Source of the DNA: a virus
IMG/VR virus record: IMGVR_UViG_3300047444_000202
Coordinates: 1 to 20,965 of that record
Reading direction: 5' to 3' (one strand)
DNA length: 20,965 bases
The notes below the pieces were generated by a model. The model saw nothing but the letters and a program-made list of their open reading frames with translations, made no database searches and was not told where the DNA came from. Of the stretch, positions 2,014-15,016 are shown piece by piece (position 1 is the first letter of the stretch; each line of letters begins with the position of its first letter). The translations under genes and the position numbers were made by a program.

Positions 2014-3189
2014 ATGGCTCCATCACTGAAATTCACACAGATAACGGCGGCTGGCGTAAATCTCGCCAGCACAGACTCTCTTATTGGAGTTCAGAACTCA
2101 ACGTCTGACAGGACTTGGACGTTGGCGCAGATTGCCTCCGGTGTTTTGTCGACGGCAACCCTCAATACAGCGACAATCAATAATGCCACCATCAATACTG
2201 CGACCATCAACAATTCAATTCTTGGTACTGCGACCATCAACAATTCTACGTTGAATACAGCAGTCATAAGCAGGTCGACATTAAGCACAGCTACGATAAA
2301 CACGGCTACGATCAATAATGCCACCATCAATACTGCGACCATCAACAATTCCACGTTGAATACAGCAACGCTCAATACAGCCACGCTGGTTAGCCCGACA
2401 AGCAGCAATGCTGTTCTTAATTCTCCGACGATCAACAGTCCGGTTCTTTCAACGGCTACGATCAACACGGGGACGCTGTCAAACGTAACGATCAATACGG
2501 CCACGCTTAATAATCCGACATCCAATACAGCCACTATAAATAATCCCACCATTAATACGGCTACTATCGGCACATCGACGATCAACAATTCTACGCTGAA
2601 CACCACAACCATAAATACAGCAACAATTACCAATGCGACGATCGCAAGCAGCAGCATTAATCTTCTGAGGACACTATCTCTCTCTCAGGTTGGGTCAGCT
2701 GTAGACACTACAAGCTTTACATCCCGGTTTGTGAAATACAGGGTTACGTTCGACAACGTATGCCCTGTATCGACGGCAACTCTGACATGCTCTTTGAATA
2801 TGCAGGTAGCAACTAGCGGAACGGCATTTGTTAGCGCCAGCTATTTGTCTAACCTGACAGGGTTTGCCGTAACCACGACTTTTATCGTTGGCACAACGAG
2901 CCTGTTCTATTTGTCTGGAATTACGGCAACTACATGTGTGGGAACGTCGACGTCATACGGTGTTAATGGATGGGTCGAGATCGTTAATCCGTCGAATGCC
3001 GTGTTCCGAAAAAGCATCAATGGCCAACTTAATTATCTGACACCCGGTGCAGTGAGTACGCTGACAAATGCCATGGTGTTTCCGTCTGGCTTCTGGGATG
3101 GGGCGGCTAGTGCCATCACTGGCATGGCCATAGCCTTCCAGACTGGTAACATCTCTACTGGCACAATCAGAATATACGGGATCGTCTGA
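2014..3189 (+). CDS. Tail fibre with a pentapeptide-repeat shaft
   Basis: A 391-residue protein. Residues 1-42 form a conserved-looking fibre N-terminus (K-F-T-Q-I-T-A-A-G-V, then T-W-T-L-A-Q-I) probably used for attachment to the tail. Residues about 44-213 are an almost unbroken run of five-residue units of the form [A/S]-T-[I/L]-N-[N/T], which fits the pentapeptide-repeat pattern (small-polar-hydrophobic-x-x) and so a right-handed quadrilateral beta-helix. Roughly 34 units would make a stiff rod. The C-terminal 175 residues (from T-L-S-L-S-Q-V-G) are non-repetitive, beta-rich and end in T-I-R-I-Y-G-I-V, and would form the distal or trimerising domain. The gene sits between two adaptor genes. 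The stop overlaps the next start (TGATG). The receptor cannot be predicted. Confidence 0.72.
   Translation: MAPSLKFTQITAAGVNLASTDSLIGVQNSTSDRTWTLAQIASGVLSTATLNTATINNATINTATINNSILGTATINNSTLNTAVISRSTLSTATINTATINNATINTATINNSTLNTATLNTATLVSPTSSNAVLNSPTINSPVLSTATINTGTLSNVTINTATLNNPTSNTATINNPTINTATIGTSTINNSTLNTTTINTATITNATIASSSINLLRTLSLSQVGSAVDTTSFTSRFVKYRVTFDNVCPVSTATLTCSLNMQVATSGTAFVSASYLSNLTGFAVTTTFIVGTTSLFYLSGITATTCVGTSTSYGVNGWVEIVNPSNAVFRKSINGQLNYLTPGAVSTLTNAMVFPSGFWDGAASAITGMAIAFQTGNISTGTIRIYGIV
2145..2655 (+). repeat. Coding 15-bp repeats (pentapeptide shaft), with a 41-bp exact direct repeat
   Basis: The shaft part of the fibre gene is built from degenerate 15-bp units. A 41-base segment at 2176-2216 recurs exactly at 2311-2351, an offset of 135 bases (nine pentapeptides), and part of it appears a third time near 2229-2246. 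Such identity above the background degeneracy points to recent duplication or to homologous recombination between units, which would change shaft length in steps of five residues without breaking frame. Confidence 0.85.
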
Positions 3190-4912: not shown

Positions 4913-6958
4913 ATGCCGTTTGGCGAAGTCAAATTAGTTCCCGGCGTCAATGTCGAGAGAACACCGACACTGCTTGAAGCGTCGATCAGCCAGAGCCAAT
5001 TGATCCGTTTCAAGGATGGTCTGGCTCAAAAATACGGAGGATGGAGCAAGTATTATCAGTTTGCCGTTAATGGTGTGCCGCGAGATATGCATGCTTGGCA
5101 GGATTTGAATTCCGTCAAGAGGCTTCTTGTGGGAACGACAACACAGCTTTCGATCATTGATACTTCCGGAATATTTACCGATATATCTCCACAGCAATTG
5201 ACGACAAATCCTGCGGTTAATTTTACAACCACGAGTGGGAGCAATGTTGTTGAAATCGTCGACACCGGCATTTCCAATGTGACCGTTCTCGACTCGATTA
5301 TGCTCAATACCCCGGTTGCTATCGGCGGTCTTGTTCTTTTTGGCCCATACCAGATTACGCTTATTACCGGAGCGACAAGTTACAAGATTGCTGCTGCGAC
5401 AAATGCCGCATCCGGCGCAAGCAATAGCGGTGCTGTTCCGGTTTTCACGACGAATTCAGGGTCTGCTAGCGTTTCAGCCCTGATTACCGGGCATGGTCTT
5501 GCTGTCGGGGACACTGTAGTATTTCAGGCAACTACGACAGGAAACGGCGTAACCATTTTTGGCCACTACACAGCGGCTACCATAACAGACGCCAATAATT
5601 TTATTTTTACTGCTGCGCAATTAGCTAGTGCCAGCGGTTCGTTTTCCATGAATGGCGGTCTGGCACAGATTGTATACAATATTGCAATAGGGCCTTCTGC
5701 GACAGGTTCTGGATATGGTCTTGGGCCCTACGGTGCTGGCGGATATGGGACTGGCGTTACGCCTACAAGCCAGACAGGAACGCCTATTACAGCTACTGAC
5801 TGGACATCGGATAACTGGGGCGAAATTGCTCTGGCTTGTCCATATGGTGGTGGCGTCTACCAATACGATCCTACAGCAGGATTTTCCAATGCGCAGCTTG
5901 TAGCGACAGCACCTCCATTCAATGGTGGCATATTTGTATCGACTACATTGCAGATTTTATTCTGCTGGGGATCGTCGCAAGTAGAGAAAGTTGGTGTCGA
6001 GCGCGATCCCATGCTCGTTAGCTGGTCAGATCAGGGGGACTATACGTCCTTCATTCCTCTGACAACTAATCAGGCCGGATCGTTTCGTATTCCAATCGGT
6101 TCAATTATTCGCGGAGGGATGGCCGTTTCCAATCAGAGCCTGTTCTGGACCGATCTTGATTTGTGGGCTGCTAACTACGCAGGATTTCCCCTTGTATTTG
6201 GTTTCAACAAGATCGGTGCTGGCGCAGGTGCGATATCCTCACATTCCATGCAACAGTTGCGGAATGGAGTTTATTGGATGGGGCCGACGAATTTCTATTC
6301 CTACAGCGGAGACGGTGTGAAGGTCATACCGTGTAACGTGTGGGACTTTGTGTTTCAGAATATGAATACGTCGTTTGGCCAGAATGTACGATCGATGCCG
6401 AATACAGGCTTTAACGAAGCTGGTTGGCTGTTTCCTTCTGCTGCATCGACAAACGGAGAGTGTGATTCTTACGTCAAGATGAACATCACCGATCCGGGTC
6501 AGCCTTGGGATTATGGCTCTCTTCCTCGATCGGCATGGATTGATCAGTCTCTTCTGGGAAATCCTATAGGAGCAACGCCTACAGGTGTCATCTACAATCA
6601 GGAGATGACGAGAGATGCTGACGGCGCTCCTCTCATATCATCATTCACAACGGGATATTTCTATATCGCGGAGGGCCAGCAGTATTCCTTTGTCGACCAG
6701 ATTCTTCCGGATATGAAGTGGGATTTTTATGGTGGCTCATCCAGTGCGCAGGTAACGATCTCGGTCAATGCGATAAATTTCCCCGGAGATACGCCAACTG
6801 TGTACGGCCCATACACCATGAATTCATCAACACAGAATATAACCACCAGAATTTCTGCACGGCAAATGTCGATTTCTATCATGTCGGCTGATGCAGGAAG
6901 CTTCTGGCGTCTCGGCAAGATACGATATCAGTATGCACCTCTAGGACGCAGGCCGTAA
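4913..6958 (+). CDS. Tail hub / packaged-DNA stabilisation protein, P22 gp10-like
   Basis: A 681-residue beta-rich protein beginning V-K-L-V-P-G-V-N-V-E-R-T-P-T-L, a start seen in phage stabilisation proteins. Repeated short strands with Gly/Ala/Thr turns and segments such as R-L-L-V-G-T-T-T-Q-L and N-E-A-G-W-L-F-P-S-A suggest a propeller-like body. A Gly/Tyr-rich loop (Y-G-L-G-P-Y-G-A-G-G-Y-G-T-G) lies near residues 265-280. In P22 this class closes the channel below the gp4 ring. The length exceeds P22 gp10 (about 470 residues), and the region of about 170-250 looks like an inserted Ala/Ser/Gly-rich repeat domain. It could also be a nozzle protein; the order connector, adaptor, collar fibre, hub supports a core tail part either way. 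Confidence 0.58.
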   Translation: MPFGEVKLVPGVNVERTPTLLEASISQSQLIRFKDGLAQKYGGWSKYYQFAVNGVPRDMHAWQDLNSVKRLLVGTTTQLSIIDTSGIFTDISPQQLTTNPAVNFTTTSGSNVVEIVDTGISNVTVLDSIMLNTPVAIGGLVLFGPYQITLITGATSYKIAAATNAASGASNSGAVPVFTTNSGSASVSALITGHGLAVGDTVVFQATTTGNGVTIFGHYTAATITDANNFIFTAAQLASASGSFSMNGGLAQIVYNIAIGPSATGSGYGLGPYGAGGYGTGVTPTSQTGTPITATDWTSDNWGEIALACPYGGGVYQYDPTAGFSNAQLVATAPPFNGGIFVSTTLQILFCWGSSQVEKVGVERDPMLVSWSDQGDYTSFIPLTTNQAGSFRIPIGSIIRGGMAVSNQSLFWTDLDLWAANYAGFPLVFGFNKIGAGAGAISSHSMQQLRNGVYWMGPTNFYSYSGDGVKVIPCNVWDFVFQNMNTSFGQNVRSMPNTGFNEAGWLFPSAASTNGECDSYVKMNITDPGQPWDYGSLPRSAWIDQSLLGNPIGATPTGVIYNQEMTRDADGAPLISSFTTGYFYIAEGQQYSFVDQILPDMKWDFYGGSSSAQVTISVNAINFPGDTPTVYGPYTMNSSTQNITTRISARQMSISIMSADAGSFWRLGKIRYQYAPLGRRP

Positions 6959-6959
6959 C

Positions 6960-7127
6960 ATGGAAAATAAAGAAAAAAAACACTCTCAAAACAAGAGATG
7001 GGTTGCCAGAATTAAGGTAAGGGGAGACAGAATATCTCTCGGTCTTTACGATGACGTATCATCCGCACATCGTGCATATGCAGCGGCAGCCAAAAAGTAT
7101 TTTGGCGAATTTGCCAAGACGGAGTAA
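6960..7127 (+). CDS. Orphan AP2-type DNA-binding domain protein (55 residues)
   Basis: A short gene beginning two bases after the hub gene stop. The product contains R-W-V-A-R-I-K-V-R-G-D-R-I-S-L-G-L-Y-D, then S-A-H-R-A-Y-A-A-A-A-K-K-Y-F-G-E-F-A. This is the three-strand plus helix pattern of AP2-like domains usually fused to HNH homing endonucleases or found in phage DNA-binding proteins. No HNH nuclease residues (His-Asn-His) are present before or after it, so this is either a stand-alone DNA-binding protein or the leftover of a homing endonuclease. The N-terminus is Lys-rich (K-E-K-K-H-S-Q-N-K-R), which suits DNA contact. Its stop overlaps the probable start of the next gene (TAACG). Confidence 0.8.
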   Translation: MENKEKKHSQNKRWVARIKVRGDRISLGLYDDVSSAHRAYAAAAKKYFGEFAKTE

Positions 7128-7543
7128 CGGCCACGGCTACATTAGACGACATCAACTCGACATTACAGAACATTGCGCGACAGCTTGGTCAATACAACCA
7201 GTCGCAGCAAAATGCTGTGCCGTTTGCTACCGCATCCTCCTCGCCAATTTCATATGCATTCAATAATATAGGTACGGCTACTGCCACCAATATTGTATCG
7301 GCAAACCAGAACAGATCAGGACTGATATTCCACAATCCGGGCGCTACGGCCAGCATCTACATCTATCCCACAAACATAACTGCTGCAGTTCCAACAACTA
7401 CGACAGTTGGCGGATGTTTTGTTATTTATCCGGGATCGACACTGTCACTTCCCTCTCCATTGTTTGCCAATGTTAATGGCACATGGGCCGCTTTCACGCA
7501 GACCGGGTCTAACCAGCCATTTACGGTTGTGGAGTTTCTCTAA
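7127..7543 (+). CDS. Small virion beta-domain protein with a probable ACG start codon
   Basis: Reading back in frame from the body of this protein gives A-T-A-T-L-D-D-I-N-S-T-L-Q-N-I-A-R-Q-L-G, a natural-looking helical N-terminus for a phage protein, but no ATG, GTG or TTG exists between the in-frame TGA at 7052 and GTG7217. The codon at the expected start is ACG (7127-7129), overlapping the previous stop as TAACG exactly where neighbouring genes have TAATG. With ACG the product is 138 residues; with GTG7217 only 108, losing the helix. The rest (N-R-S-G-L-I-F-H-N-P-G-A, Y-P-G-S-T-L-S-L-P-S-P) looks like a small beta sandwich as in decoration or fibre proteins. GGAG at 7121-7124 is very close to the start. 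Function is inferred; the stop overlaps the next ATG. Confidence 0.62.
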   Translation, partial: TATATLDDINSTLQNIARQLGQYNQSQQNAVPFATASSSPISYAFNNIGTATATNIVSANQNRSGLIFHNPGATASIYIYPTNITAAVPTTTTVGGCFVIYPGSTLSLPSPLFANVNGTWAAFTQTGSNQPFTVVEFL

Positions 7544-7992
7544 TGGCAATGGAATTGATACCGGGGCCTAATCCTGTCTTCGGGACGCTTACTGCTAACA
7601 CGCTTACTGCTAACACCGTTAATGGTGCGACGATTGATAATCTTCCATGGACGACATGGACGCCAGTGGTGACGGCTTCAGTAGGAACATTCACTGCTAC
7701 GAGCGCAGTAGGTCGCTATAAACAGATTGGTAAAACAATAAGTTTTGGAGTTGCTGTCAGATGTATTACGGTTGGTTCAGCATCAGTCGCTGTTGTGTTT
7801 ACCCTTCCAGTATCGGCCAATACTAGTGTAATTAGTATTGCTTCTGGTGGAAGGGAAGCTTTAATAAATGGATCTGCGCTTAATTGTCAAATTAATGGTT
7901 CGACGACGGCGTTTATTCAATATTACAACACTACCTTTCCCGGTGCGGATGGCAGTCTATTAAATGTTAGCGGGACTTACGAGGCACTATGA
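7543..7992 (+). CDS. Small tail fibre / receptor-tip-like protein
   Basis: A 149-residue protein. The N-terminus (G-P-N-P-V-F-G-T-L-T-A-N-T-L-T-A-N) carries a short repeat similar in style to the fibre at 2014. Then W-T-T-W-T-P-V-V-T-A-S-V-G-T-F-T and G-R-Y-K-Q-I-G-K-T-I-S-F-G-V appear, a signature common in C-terminal beta-sandwich domains of tail fibres. It lacks any enzymatic motif. It probably binds another fibre or the host surface. It starts inside the TAATG overlap with the preceding gene and ends 10 bases before the next start, where GAGGA forms the next ribosome site. Confidence 0.62.
   Translation: MAMELIPGPNPVFGTLTANTLTANTVNGATIDNLPWTTWTPVVTASVGTFTATSAVGRYKQIGKTISFGVAVRCITVGSASVAVVFTLPVSANTSVISIASGGREALINGSALNCQINGSTTAFIQYYNTTFPGADGSLLNVSGTYEAL
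7585..7614 (+). repeat. Perfect tandem 2 x 15 bp repeat in the small fibre gene
   Basis: Two identical 15-base units, 7585-7599 and 7600-7614, encode T-L-T-A-N twice. The unit length is the same as in the pentapeptide shaft of the fibre at 2014, so this may be a minimal version of the same kind of repeat. Confidence 0.85.
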
Positions 7993-12904: not shown

Positions 12905-15016
12905 ATGGCTGACGATGATTTCGTTCCCAGCGATGACTTTGTCGCAGAGCCGGATTTCAAGCCGGATGTTCGTCCTACAGGGCGCGAGCGTGAACATGCG
13001 TATAGATCATCATTGCGCGAAGGATCGCCTGAATTGCCTGCCGGTCAGGGCACAGCTGGGCCGGATTTATCAGCCGAGAGTGAAACACCCGGAAAGATGG
13101 CTAGTGAGTACGGTCAGATAGCCAAGGGTGCCATTAAGGGTATTCCGGCGGCAGTGTCTGGTGGGTTGGCTGGTGATGTCGAGTCGATGGGTCGAGGTTT
13201 CATCAATTCATTTGTAGATCCGAATAAGCCTGCGGTTTCCAAAGACACGGCAATCCCTACGACAACGGAGAGTGGATACCTTGGGCCGAAAGGCCTCAAC
13301 GTCATGGCACCAGCGGCTAATCCGCTTGAGGCATTTGGCATGGGGGCGAGTTCGGCTGCTGTTCCGTTTTTTCCGAAGGCAGTAAAATCATTCAGGGGAA
13401 GACTGCCACCGATCGACAATCTTCCTCCCGGGCCTCCCGGCGGATCAATGGCTACGGTGCGTCCTGACACCAATGTTCGGCTACTTCCGCCGGAAGTTCC
13501 GCACACACCAATGGTTGCCAGTGGAAGTCGGGATCTTGGTGCTGCTGGTGTGAGTCCACTGGAAGGCGTCAGTCCAGAGACGATCACGCAATTGCGCAAG
13601 GTATTCTCTGAGGAAGGTGTGACACCATACACGGTCGACCAGCGTCTTGAGGAGATGTCTCCACACCAGTTTTTGGGAGAATTCTCGCCGAATACAGAAG
13701 CGCATATGGGTGCTGCGGCTGCGCCTCCGGGTCAGGGAAAACTGGATATTATCAACTCTCTGAGCCAGAGAGCGAATGAAGCAAAGGACCGGTTGCGATC
13801 GACGTTCGATACGGCATTTGGCGAGAATGAAAATCTAGCGCAATTGAAACGTACGCGAGAGATAGATCAGAAGAAAGCATCAGATCCTCTCTACAAGGCT
13901 TTCAAGGAATTACCGATACCGCCAACTCCGGAACTACAAGAATTGATGCCTCGCCTGCAGGCTGCCGATGCATTCGGCATTGCTAAACACAAAGCAGCAG
14001 TAGAAGGCATTAAGTGGGATAAGGATTTTGGCAGTGGTTATGGTCCTATCGAAGGCGGGTCTATGCCGACTGCACAGTCATGGGATTATGTAAAGCGGGC
14101 ACTAGATCAGAAGATAGCAGACTCGTTTGATCAGTATGGGAGGGCAACTGACTACACCAGAATATATACCGGTCTGAAAAGCGAACTGCTCAATGCGATC
14201 GATAACCATCCTAATCCGCAAGTAGCTGGAGTGTGGAAGCAGGCAAGGCAAGCGTATGCTGGACCAGCACAGATATCAGAAGCGGAGAGGCTAGGAAAAA
14301 AGATTTTCACGCTCGACCACGATGAGTTGCCGTTTCTGACTGCCGGGTATTCCGATGGGCAGATGGCGGCATTCCGCAGTTCAGTTCGTAAGGAATTGGA
14401 GAATAGGCTTGGTAGACCGGGTAAACAGGAACTGCGTACGATCAATGAGGTACTGGCTCCAAATAACATACAGAAGTTTCGCTGGATCATTGGTGATGAG
14501 GCTACAGATAATCTGGTACGAAGCGTTGATCATGAATTCAATATGCATGGAGCGCCTACGAGAATACATGGTGGCTCTCAGACCGCATTGCGTACAGAAG
14601 CAAATAAGATGTGGACACCACAGGGCGCATCTGCACTGGAGCATGCAGGTAACCTGATCGATACCGGTGTTGGTTTGGTAACGCATCCTGCTGGCACAAT
14701 CATCAAGGCAGGCAGGAAGCTTGGCATAACCAAGATGGATACTGCGCGAGAGGCTCGATCCGCAAAGATTCGCGACGAAGCAGCCCGTATATTTACGCTA
14801 CAGGGTCCGGAGCGAGATGCTGTTATACGCTATCTTGCAAATCCGCAACCGCCGCGATTGACAGGAGGGCGCGTCCTTCATCGAGCCACTGGTGGACGAG
14901 CAGTAGGCCACAAGCCGTCGCGTCCGCTACTTATTGATGCCCGCAAGGCTCCTGACGGAAAGTTTTATATTCCTGATCCGAAGCGTCCCGGAAAATATCT
15001 ACGGGTCGAGCAATGA
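12905..15016 (+). CDS. Large virion-associated protein of unknown function (703 residues)
   Basis: The N-terminus is very acidic (M-A-D-D-D-F-V-P-S-D-D-F-V), followed by a Pro/Gly-rich region and a helical, small-residue stretch (A-I-K-G-I-P-A-A-V-S-G-G-L-A-G, about 77-91) that could interact with membranes. Residues about 260-560 are strongly helical with many charged residues (R-A-N-E-A-K-D-R-L-R, then F-K-E-L-P-I-P-P-T-P-E-L-Q-E-L). Near the C-terminus are R-A-T-G-G (660-664) and an ending K-A-P-D-G-K-F-Y-I-P-D-P, a pattern echoed in the end of the upstream lysozyme protein (K-T-P-D-G-S-F-I). No enzyme motif is recognisable. The size, helical content and place between two probable ejection proteins suggest an internal virion protein. 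The stop overlaps the next start as ATGA, implying coupled translation. Confidence 0.55.
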   Translation: MADDDFVPSDDFVAEPDFKPDVRPTGREREHAYRSSLREGSPELPAGQGTAGPDLSAESETPGKMASEYGQIAKGAIKGIPAAVSGGLAGDVESMGRGFINSFVDPNKPAVSKDTAIPTTTESGYLGPKGLNVMAPAANPLEAFGMGASSAAVPFFPKAVKSFRGRLPPIDNLPPGPPGGSMATVRPDTNVRLLPPEVPHTPMVASGSRDLGAAGVSPLEGVSPETITQLRKVFSEEGVTPYTVDQRLEEMSPHQFLGEFSPNTEAHMGAAAAPPGQGKLDIINSLSQRANEAKDRLRSTFDTAFGENENLAQLKRTREIDQKKASDPLYKAFKELPIPPTPELQELMPRLQAADAFGIAKHKAAVEGIKWDKDFGSGYGPIEGGSMPTAQSWDYVKRALDQKIADSFDQYGRATDYTRIYTGLKSELLNAIDNHPNPQVAGVWKQARQAYAGPAQISEAERLGKKIFTLDHDELPFLTAGYSDGQMAAFRSSVRKELENRLGRPGKQELRTINEVLAPNNIQKFRWIIGDEATDNLVRSVDHEFNMHGAPTRIHGGSQTALRTEANKMWTPQGASALEHAGNLIDTGVGLVTHPAGTIIKAGRKLGITKMDTAREARSAKIRDEAARIFTLQGPERDAVIRYLANPQPPRLTGGRVLHRATGGRAVGHKPSRPLLIDARKAPDGKFYIPDPKRPGKYLRVEQ

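Follow-up and report, generated by a model that had tools for sequence, protein, structure and literature searches.

A small viral tail-protein gene without its usual ATG start, behind a putative HNH-AP2 relic

The window analysed here is a 20,965-nucleotide stretch of DNA from the IMG/VR virus record IMGVR_UViG_3300047444_000202. Its small tail-protein gene (7133..7543) is a real gene without its usual ATG, which normally overlaps or abuts the stop codon of the preceding gp10 gene. On balance, and by a narrow preference, the full-length protein is taken to be made by weak, probably coupled initiation at the ACG at 7133 (or that at 7127). We infer the use of ACG, the choice of ACG and the reduced output. 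The case is real and unusual, yet of an ordinary kind, the erosion of a start codon at a hotspot of homing endonucleases.

The tail gene and its homologues

On the plus strand, to which all junction features of the window given below belong, the tail gene frame is closed by TGA at 7052-7054 and then open up to TAA at 7541-7543. The initial annotation had stated that no ATG, GTG or TTG occurs in this frame until 7217, and re-reading confirmed it: the first is GTG at 7217-7219, and none lies between the upstream in-frame stop and the conserved N-terminus. The gene encodes 136 aa from 7133 (138 from 7127). By simple arithmetic a random stretch would lack all three codons in about 22% of cases if it is 30 codons long and in about 7% if it is 54 codons long, and their absence, taken alone, is evidence of little weight. 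It becomes meaningful because 55 of the 58 distinct homologous viral loci have ATG at that point, in almost all cases no more than 6 nt from the preceding stop.

Homologues of the small protein were found in four viral-contig loci (L001, identical; L002, 76%; L003, 69%; L004, 61-62%), while a direct tblastn search of annotated phages gave no match. The upstream P22 gp10-like protein, used as query, added 80 further loci. When only ORFs next to the gp10 stop were admitted, under limits on position and length, the small gene was present directly or closely after gp10 in 63 loci, which reduce to the 58 distinct ones. The usual junction reads TGATG, TAATG, ATGA or a stop followed by ATG, with a GGGAG-type sequence in the last gp10 codons. 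In six loci GTG or TTG matches at -1 were disregarded, as each of these loci has an in-frame ATG at +2.

The three exceptions to ATG are the window (ACG), L003 (ATT) and L004 (TTG). Together with L002 (ATG) they form one clade with a support of 99 in a quick gp10 tree. The clustering of non-ATG starts has a hypergeometric probability of about 1.3e-4 by our own arithmetic on loci that are related, and a single shared cause therefore suffices for it. L003 carries no AP2 insert, and a TAG 9 nt before the ATT closes its frame. This ATT is the only near-cognate codon and stands 5 nt after AGGAGG (duplex energy -11.2 kcal/mol; single contig), and no canonical-start ORF of at least 60 aa was found for the small tail gene in that same contig. 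With no ATG, GTG or TTG available, the gene in L003 is, judged from its sequence, evidently expressed from another start. Since L003 lacks a canonical start without having the insert, the AP2 insert of the window is not the whole story.

The initial annotation had also claimed that the codons upstream of 7217 encode a good N-terminal helix, and homologues, selection and structure prediction all bear this out. The AlphaFold2 model (mean pLDDT 84.8) folds residues 3-30 of the 138-aa frame (codons 7133..7216) into a helix, followed by a beta domain; the block pLDDT values over residues 1-30 are 72, 91 and 83. The N-terminus A-T-[LI]-D-D-I-N-S-T-L-Q is kept throughout the clade, and homologues do carry the residues encoded by 7127-7216, whose absence had been named as grounds for rejection. 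Between the window and L002, the 27 N-terminal codons differ by 16 synonymous and 5 non-synonymous changes, a pattern that indicates purifying selection. The helix module is kept even in homologues with an unrelated C-terminal domain; in the alignment of the small tail gene homologues (A4), at least two unrelated types of C-terminal domain replace each other behind a constant helix. This would be as expected for a virion anchor with a variable head.

The position after gp10 and the N-terminal helix module place the window protein in this tail family. Nine of the 31 family members match PHROG 34100 ("tail protein"), the window copy not among them. A fold search with the small protein gave no significant solved structure (best E 2.5e-3), and in the viral library it matched uncharacterised phage proteins only, so the function of the protein is not fixed by fold search. 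Elsewhere in the window, 2014-3189 encodes a protein rich in T-A-T-I-N-N repeats, and a long open antisense frame within it (2091-2657) is probably a by-product of these repeats.

The gp10/tail junction and its AP2 relic

The upstream gene (4913..6958) encodes a P22 gp10-like packaged-DNA stabilisation or tail hub protein of 681 aa (PHROG 3287, E=3.8e-51), a relative of which is annotated as "phage stabilization protein" in MW202675. The window protein ends in GRRP*, its relatives in GRR*. It is followed by a 55-aa ORF (6960..7127, ATG to TAA) that matches Pfam AP2 with E=1.5e-5 and 25.6 bits (cut-off 33.3) over profile positions 11-53 of 54, the first strand being missing. The ORF also matches the C-terminal part of the HNH endonucleases of PHROG 99 (E=1.5e-12) and is 59% identical to the end of L096, a full HNH-AP2 protein. 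The HNH catalytic domain is absent from the ORF, which holds AP2 residues only. The AP2 gene of the initial annotation is thus present as an ORF, and its matches identify it as a putative truncated C-terminal relic of an HNH-AP2 homing endonuclease lying in the gp10/tail junction. A 5-bp repeat, GTAAC, flanks the relic (6955..6959 and 7124..7128) and may be due to chance. The flanks joined at the two copies would still have no ATG; if that were the ancestral junction, the relic would not be the sole cause of the loss.

Other loci also carry extra sequence in the gap between gp10 and the small gene. Reverse-strand HNH homing endonucleases are found in L024 (5463-6100) and L049 (5534-6060); L040 holds an AP2 fragment, likewise on the reverse strand, and L023, L033 and L055 have other small ORFs there. 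From the HNH genes, AP2 fragments and other ORFs it follows that the junction is an insertion hotspot. In L024 and L049 no small gene was found immediately behind gp10. In L021 (5541-5650) and L025 (4114-4236), a conserved non-coding insert of about 100 nt (GGGTGACCGCGCTG, GGAAGCGAAGATGCGNGAATGAGACA) lies between gp10 and the small tail gene; exact copies of its motif occur in these two contigs only, both from one metagenome. Rfam gave no match to this insert, and none at the junction.

The window junction reads TAACG; TAATG is found at 1649-1653 and 7541-7545, in agreement with the contrast drawn by the initial annotation. ACG initiation or a lost start codon was the right pair of options, but the better-placed ACG is that at 7133..7135 rather than the proposed 7127. 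In the protein alignment, in which the relatives begin M-A-T-[LI]-D-D-I-N-S-T-L-Q and the window T-A-T-A-T-L-D-D, the ACG at 7133 falls on the initiator Met of the relatives. The conserved N-terminus thus does lie upstream of 7217, though by this alignment it begins at 7133 and not with the M-A-T-A-T-L-D-D considered earlier. The Shine-Dalgarno-like GGAG at 7121..7124 precedes ACG 7133 by 8 nt, which is the usual spacing and also that of the GGAG before the ATG of the next gene (7543); it precedes ACG 7127 by only 2 nt. In favour of ACG 7127..7129 are its overlap with the AP2 ORF stop and its likeness to TGATGGCCAC: as DNA, TAACGGCCAC (7125-7134) resembles TGATGGCCAC and TAATGGCCAC of L002 and L034, and 7127 may for this reason be the start instead. 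Spacing and homology point to 7133, with 7127 as the alternative; the two cannot be separated.

Readings of the missing start

In the reading preferred here, the relic at 6960-7127 now separates the tail gene from gp10. Ribosomes would end its translation at TAA 7125-7127 and, helped by GGAG 7121-7124, re-initiate with initiator tRNA at ACG 7133 (or 7127), the outcome being full-length tail protein at a lower level. The short distance from stop to start and the Shine-Dalgarno sequence inside the upstream ORF form the layout of a coupled pair, and it is from this layout that coupled re-initiation is proposed. Against it, the relic itself may not be translated, and the second base of ACG does not pair with the initiator anticodon. 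In vitro, one survey saw initiation accept nothing but Watson-Crick pairing at the first two bases (PMC10158994). Among 61,358 ancestral AUG starts, only one is listed as having changed to AUU and not one to ACG, a count that may depend on annotation (PMC5622118). ACG starts are very rare in bacteria and their viruses.

As the literature describes such a poor start, low output or outright loss is a serious rival. If the relic destroyed the start, the protein would be made in traces or not at all, the phage would tolerate this, and the gene would be a young pseudogene. This is rather unlikely, although ACG initiates extremely poorly, three of the four clade members have non-ATG starts, which may mean relaxed selection, and the gp10 C-terminus has been altered too (GRRP*). 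The frame runs for 136 codons without a stop or frameshift and with a clear synonymous excess, though a recent loss would leave no trace; allele and intact frame are kept in both contigs that cover the junction. The ATT of L003, with its near-perfect ribosome site, looks like compensation and not decay. A broader version of the preferred reading, in which the start codon of the clade drifted over ATG, TTG, ATT and ACG, termination-coupled weak initiation sets a low copy number and the ACG of the window is a naturally occurring, working start of a structural phage gene, is put forward tentatively, as a possibility.

The other readings have less in their favour. A truncated protein from GTG 7217, consisting of the beta domain only, is improbable: no other canonical start comes before this codon in the frame, and the protein would be cut exactly where the predicted helix ends, but no Shine-Dalgarno sequence precedes it, it is absent in L002, L003 and L004, and the most conserved module would be deleted. 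That the virus really has ATG, an error of sequencing or assembly having changed 7128 or 7134, is very improbable, even if one base at either position would suffice. The contig IMGVR_UViG_3300046529_000151 overlaps the window by 15,630 bp with an identical junction, yet has 17 mismatches and one gap, and a sequencing error is unlikely because this contig was assembled independently. It was also the only match in a scan that allowed C or T at 7128, and it has C. The comparison of base 7128 in related DNA, which had been suggested at the outset, thus found C in a second contig and no T, but both contigs represent a single lineage, assembled twice. Fifteen of the 17 mismatches are crowded into 13018-13069, a run of 52 bases inside the 12905-15016 ORF.

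A frameshift joining the AP2 domain to the tail protein had been offered as a further option; as a -1 ribosomal event somewhere in 7055-7125 it is hardly probable at all. The -1 frame is open over 7055-7125, and a small hairpin follows the C-AAA-AAG at 7091-7097. This stretch holds no strict X-XXY-YYZ heptamer, so that the combination of slippery site and structure is not found, and shuffled versions of it fold just as well (z=0.58). At the longer A run near the beginning of the AP2 ORF, slippage would lead to stops, and the AP2 part is a degenerate relic. Comparison gives the proposal no support either: L023 and L033, with other ORFs in the same junction, start the tail gene at its own ATG.

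Meaning and comparison with known systems

Gene callers limited to ATG, GTG and TTG would drop or truncate the tail protein of the window, and likewise its homologue that starts with ATT. Should ACG work here, re-initiating ribosomes would be accepting a codon nearly excluded in de novo initiation; with ATG, TTG, ATT and ACG all at one junction, the clade is a natural series for testing ACG re-initiation. The junction also suggests a cost of homing-endonuclease traffic, in that relics can damage the start signals of adjoining structural genes.

HNH-AP2 (IPA-HNH) homing endonuclease genes sit beside phage structural genes and can be split, and split or broken copies with separate AP2 ORFs are known, as in ICP1 gp115-gp116 (PMC10448857). 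The window relic resembles them in its AP2 C-terminal domain, its K-Y-F-G-E-F-A-K ending and its place at a junction of structural genes (PMC10448857). It differs in having neither the HNH part nor the first AP2 strand, and in occupying the usual place of the start signals of the next gene. Coupling by termination and re-initiation is known with TGATG, ATGA and TAATG overlaps (PMC6728339, PMC12548453). As in these systems, the upstream stop of the window lies at or a few nucleotides from the candidate start and GGAG lies inside the upstream ORF; unlike them, the start is ACG, and coupling is putative. Non-canonical starts are described for infC (ATT) and Streptomyces sigR (GTC), the translation of sigR being repressed by IF3 (PMC5472188). 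The window gene is like these in having no ATG, GTG or TTG and a conserved N-terminus upstream, and the ATT of L003 is that of infC. In contrast to infC and sigR, the window gene is a putative virion gene known from sequence alone, with no sign of IF3 feedback, and its ACG differs from AUG at the second base.
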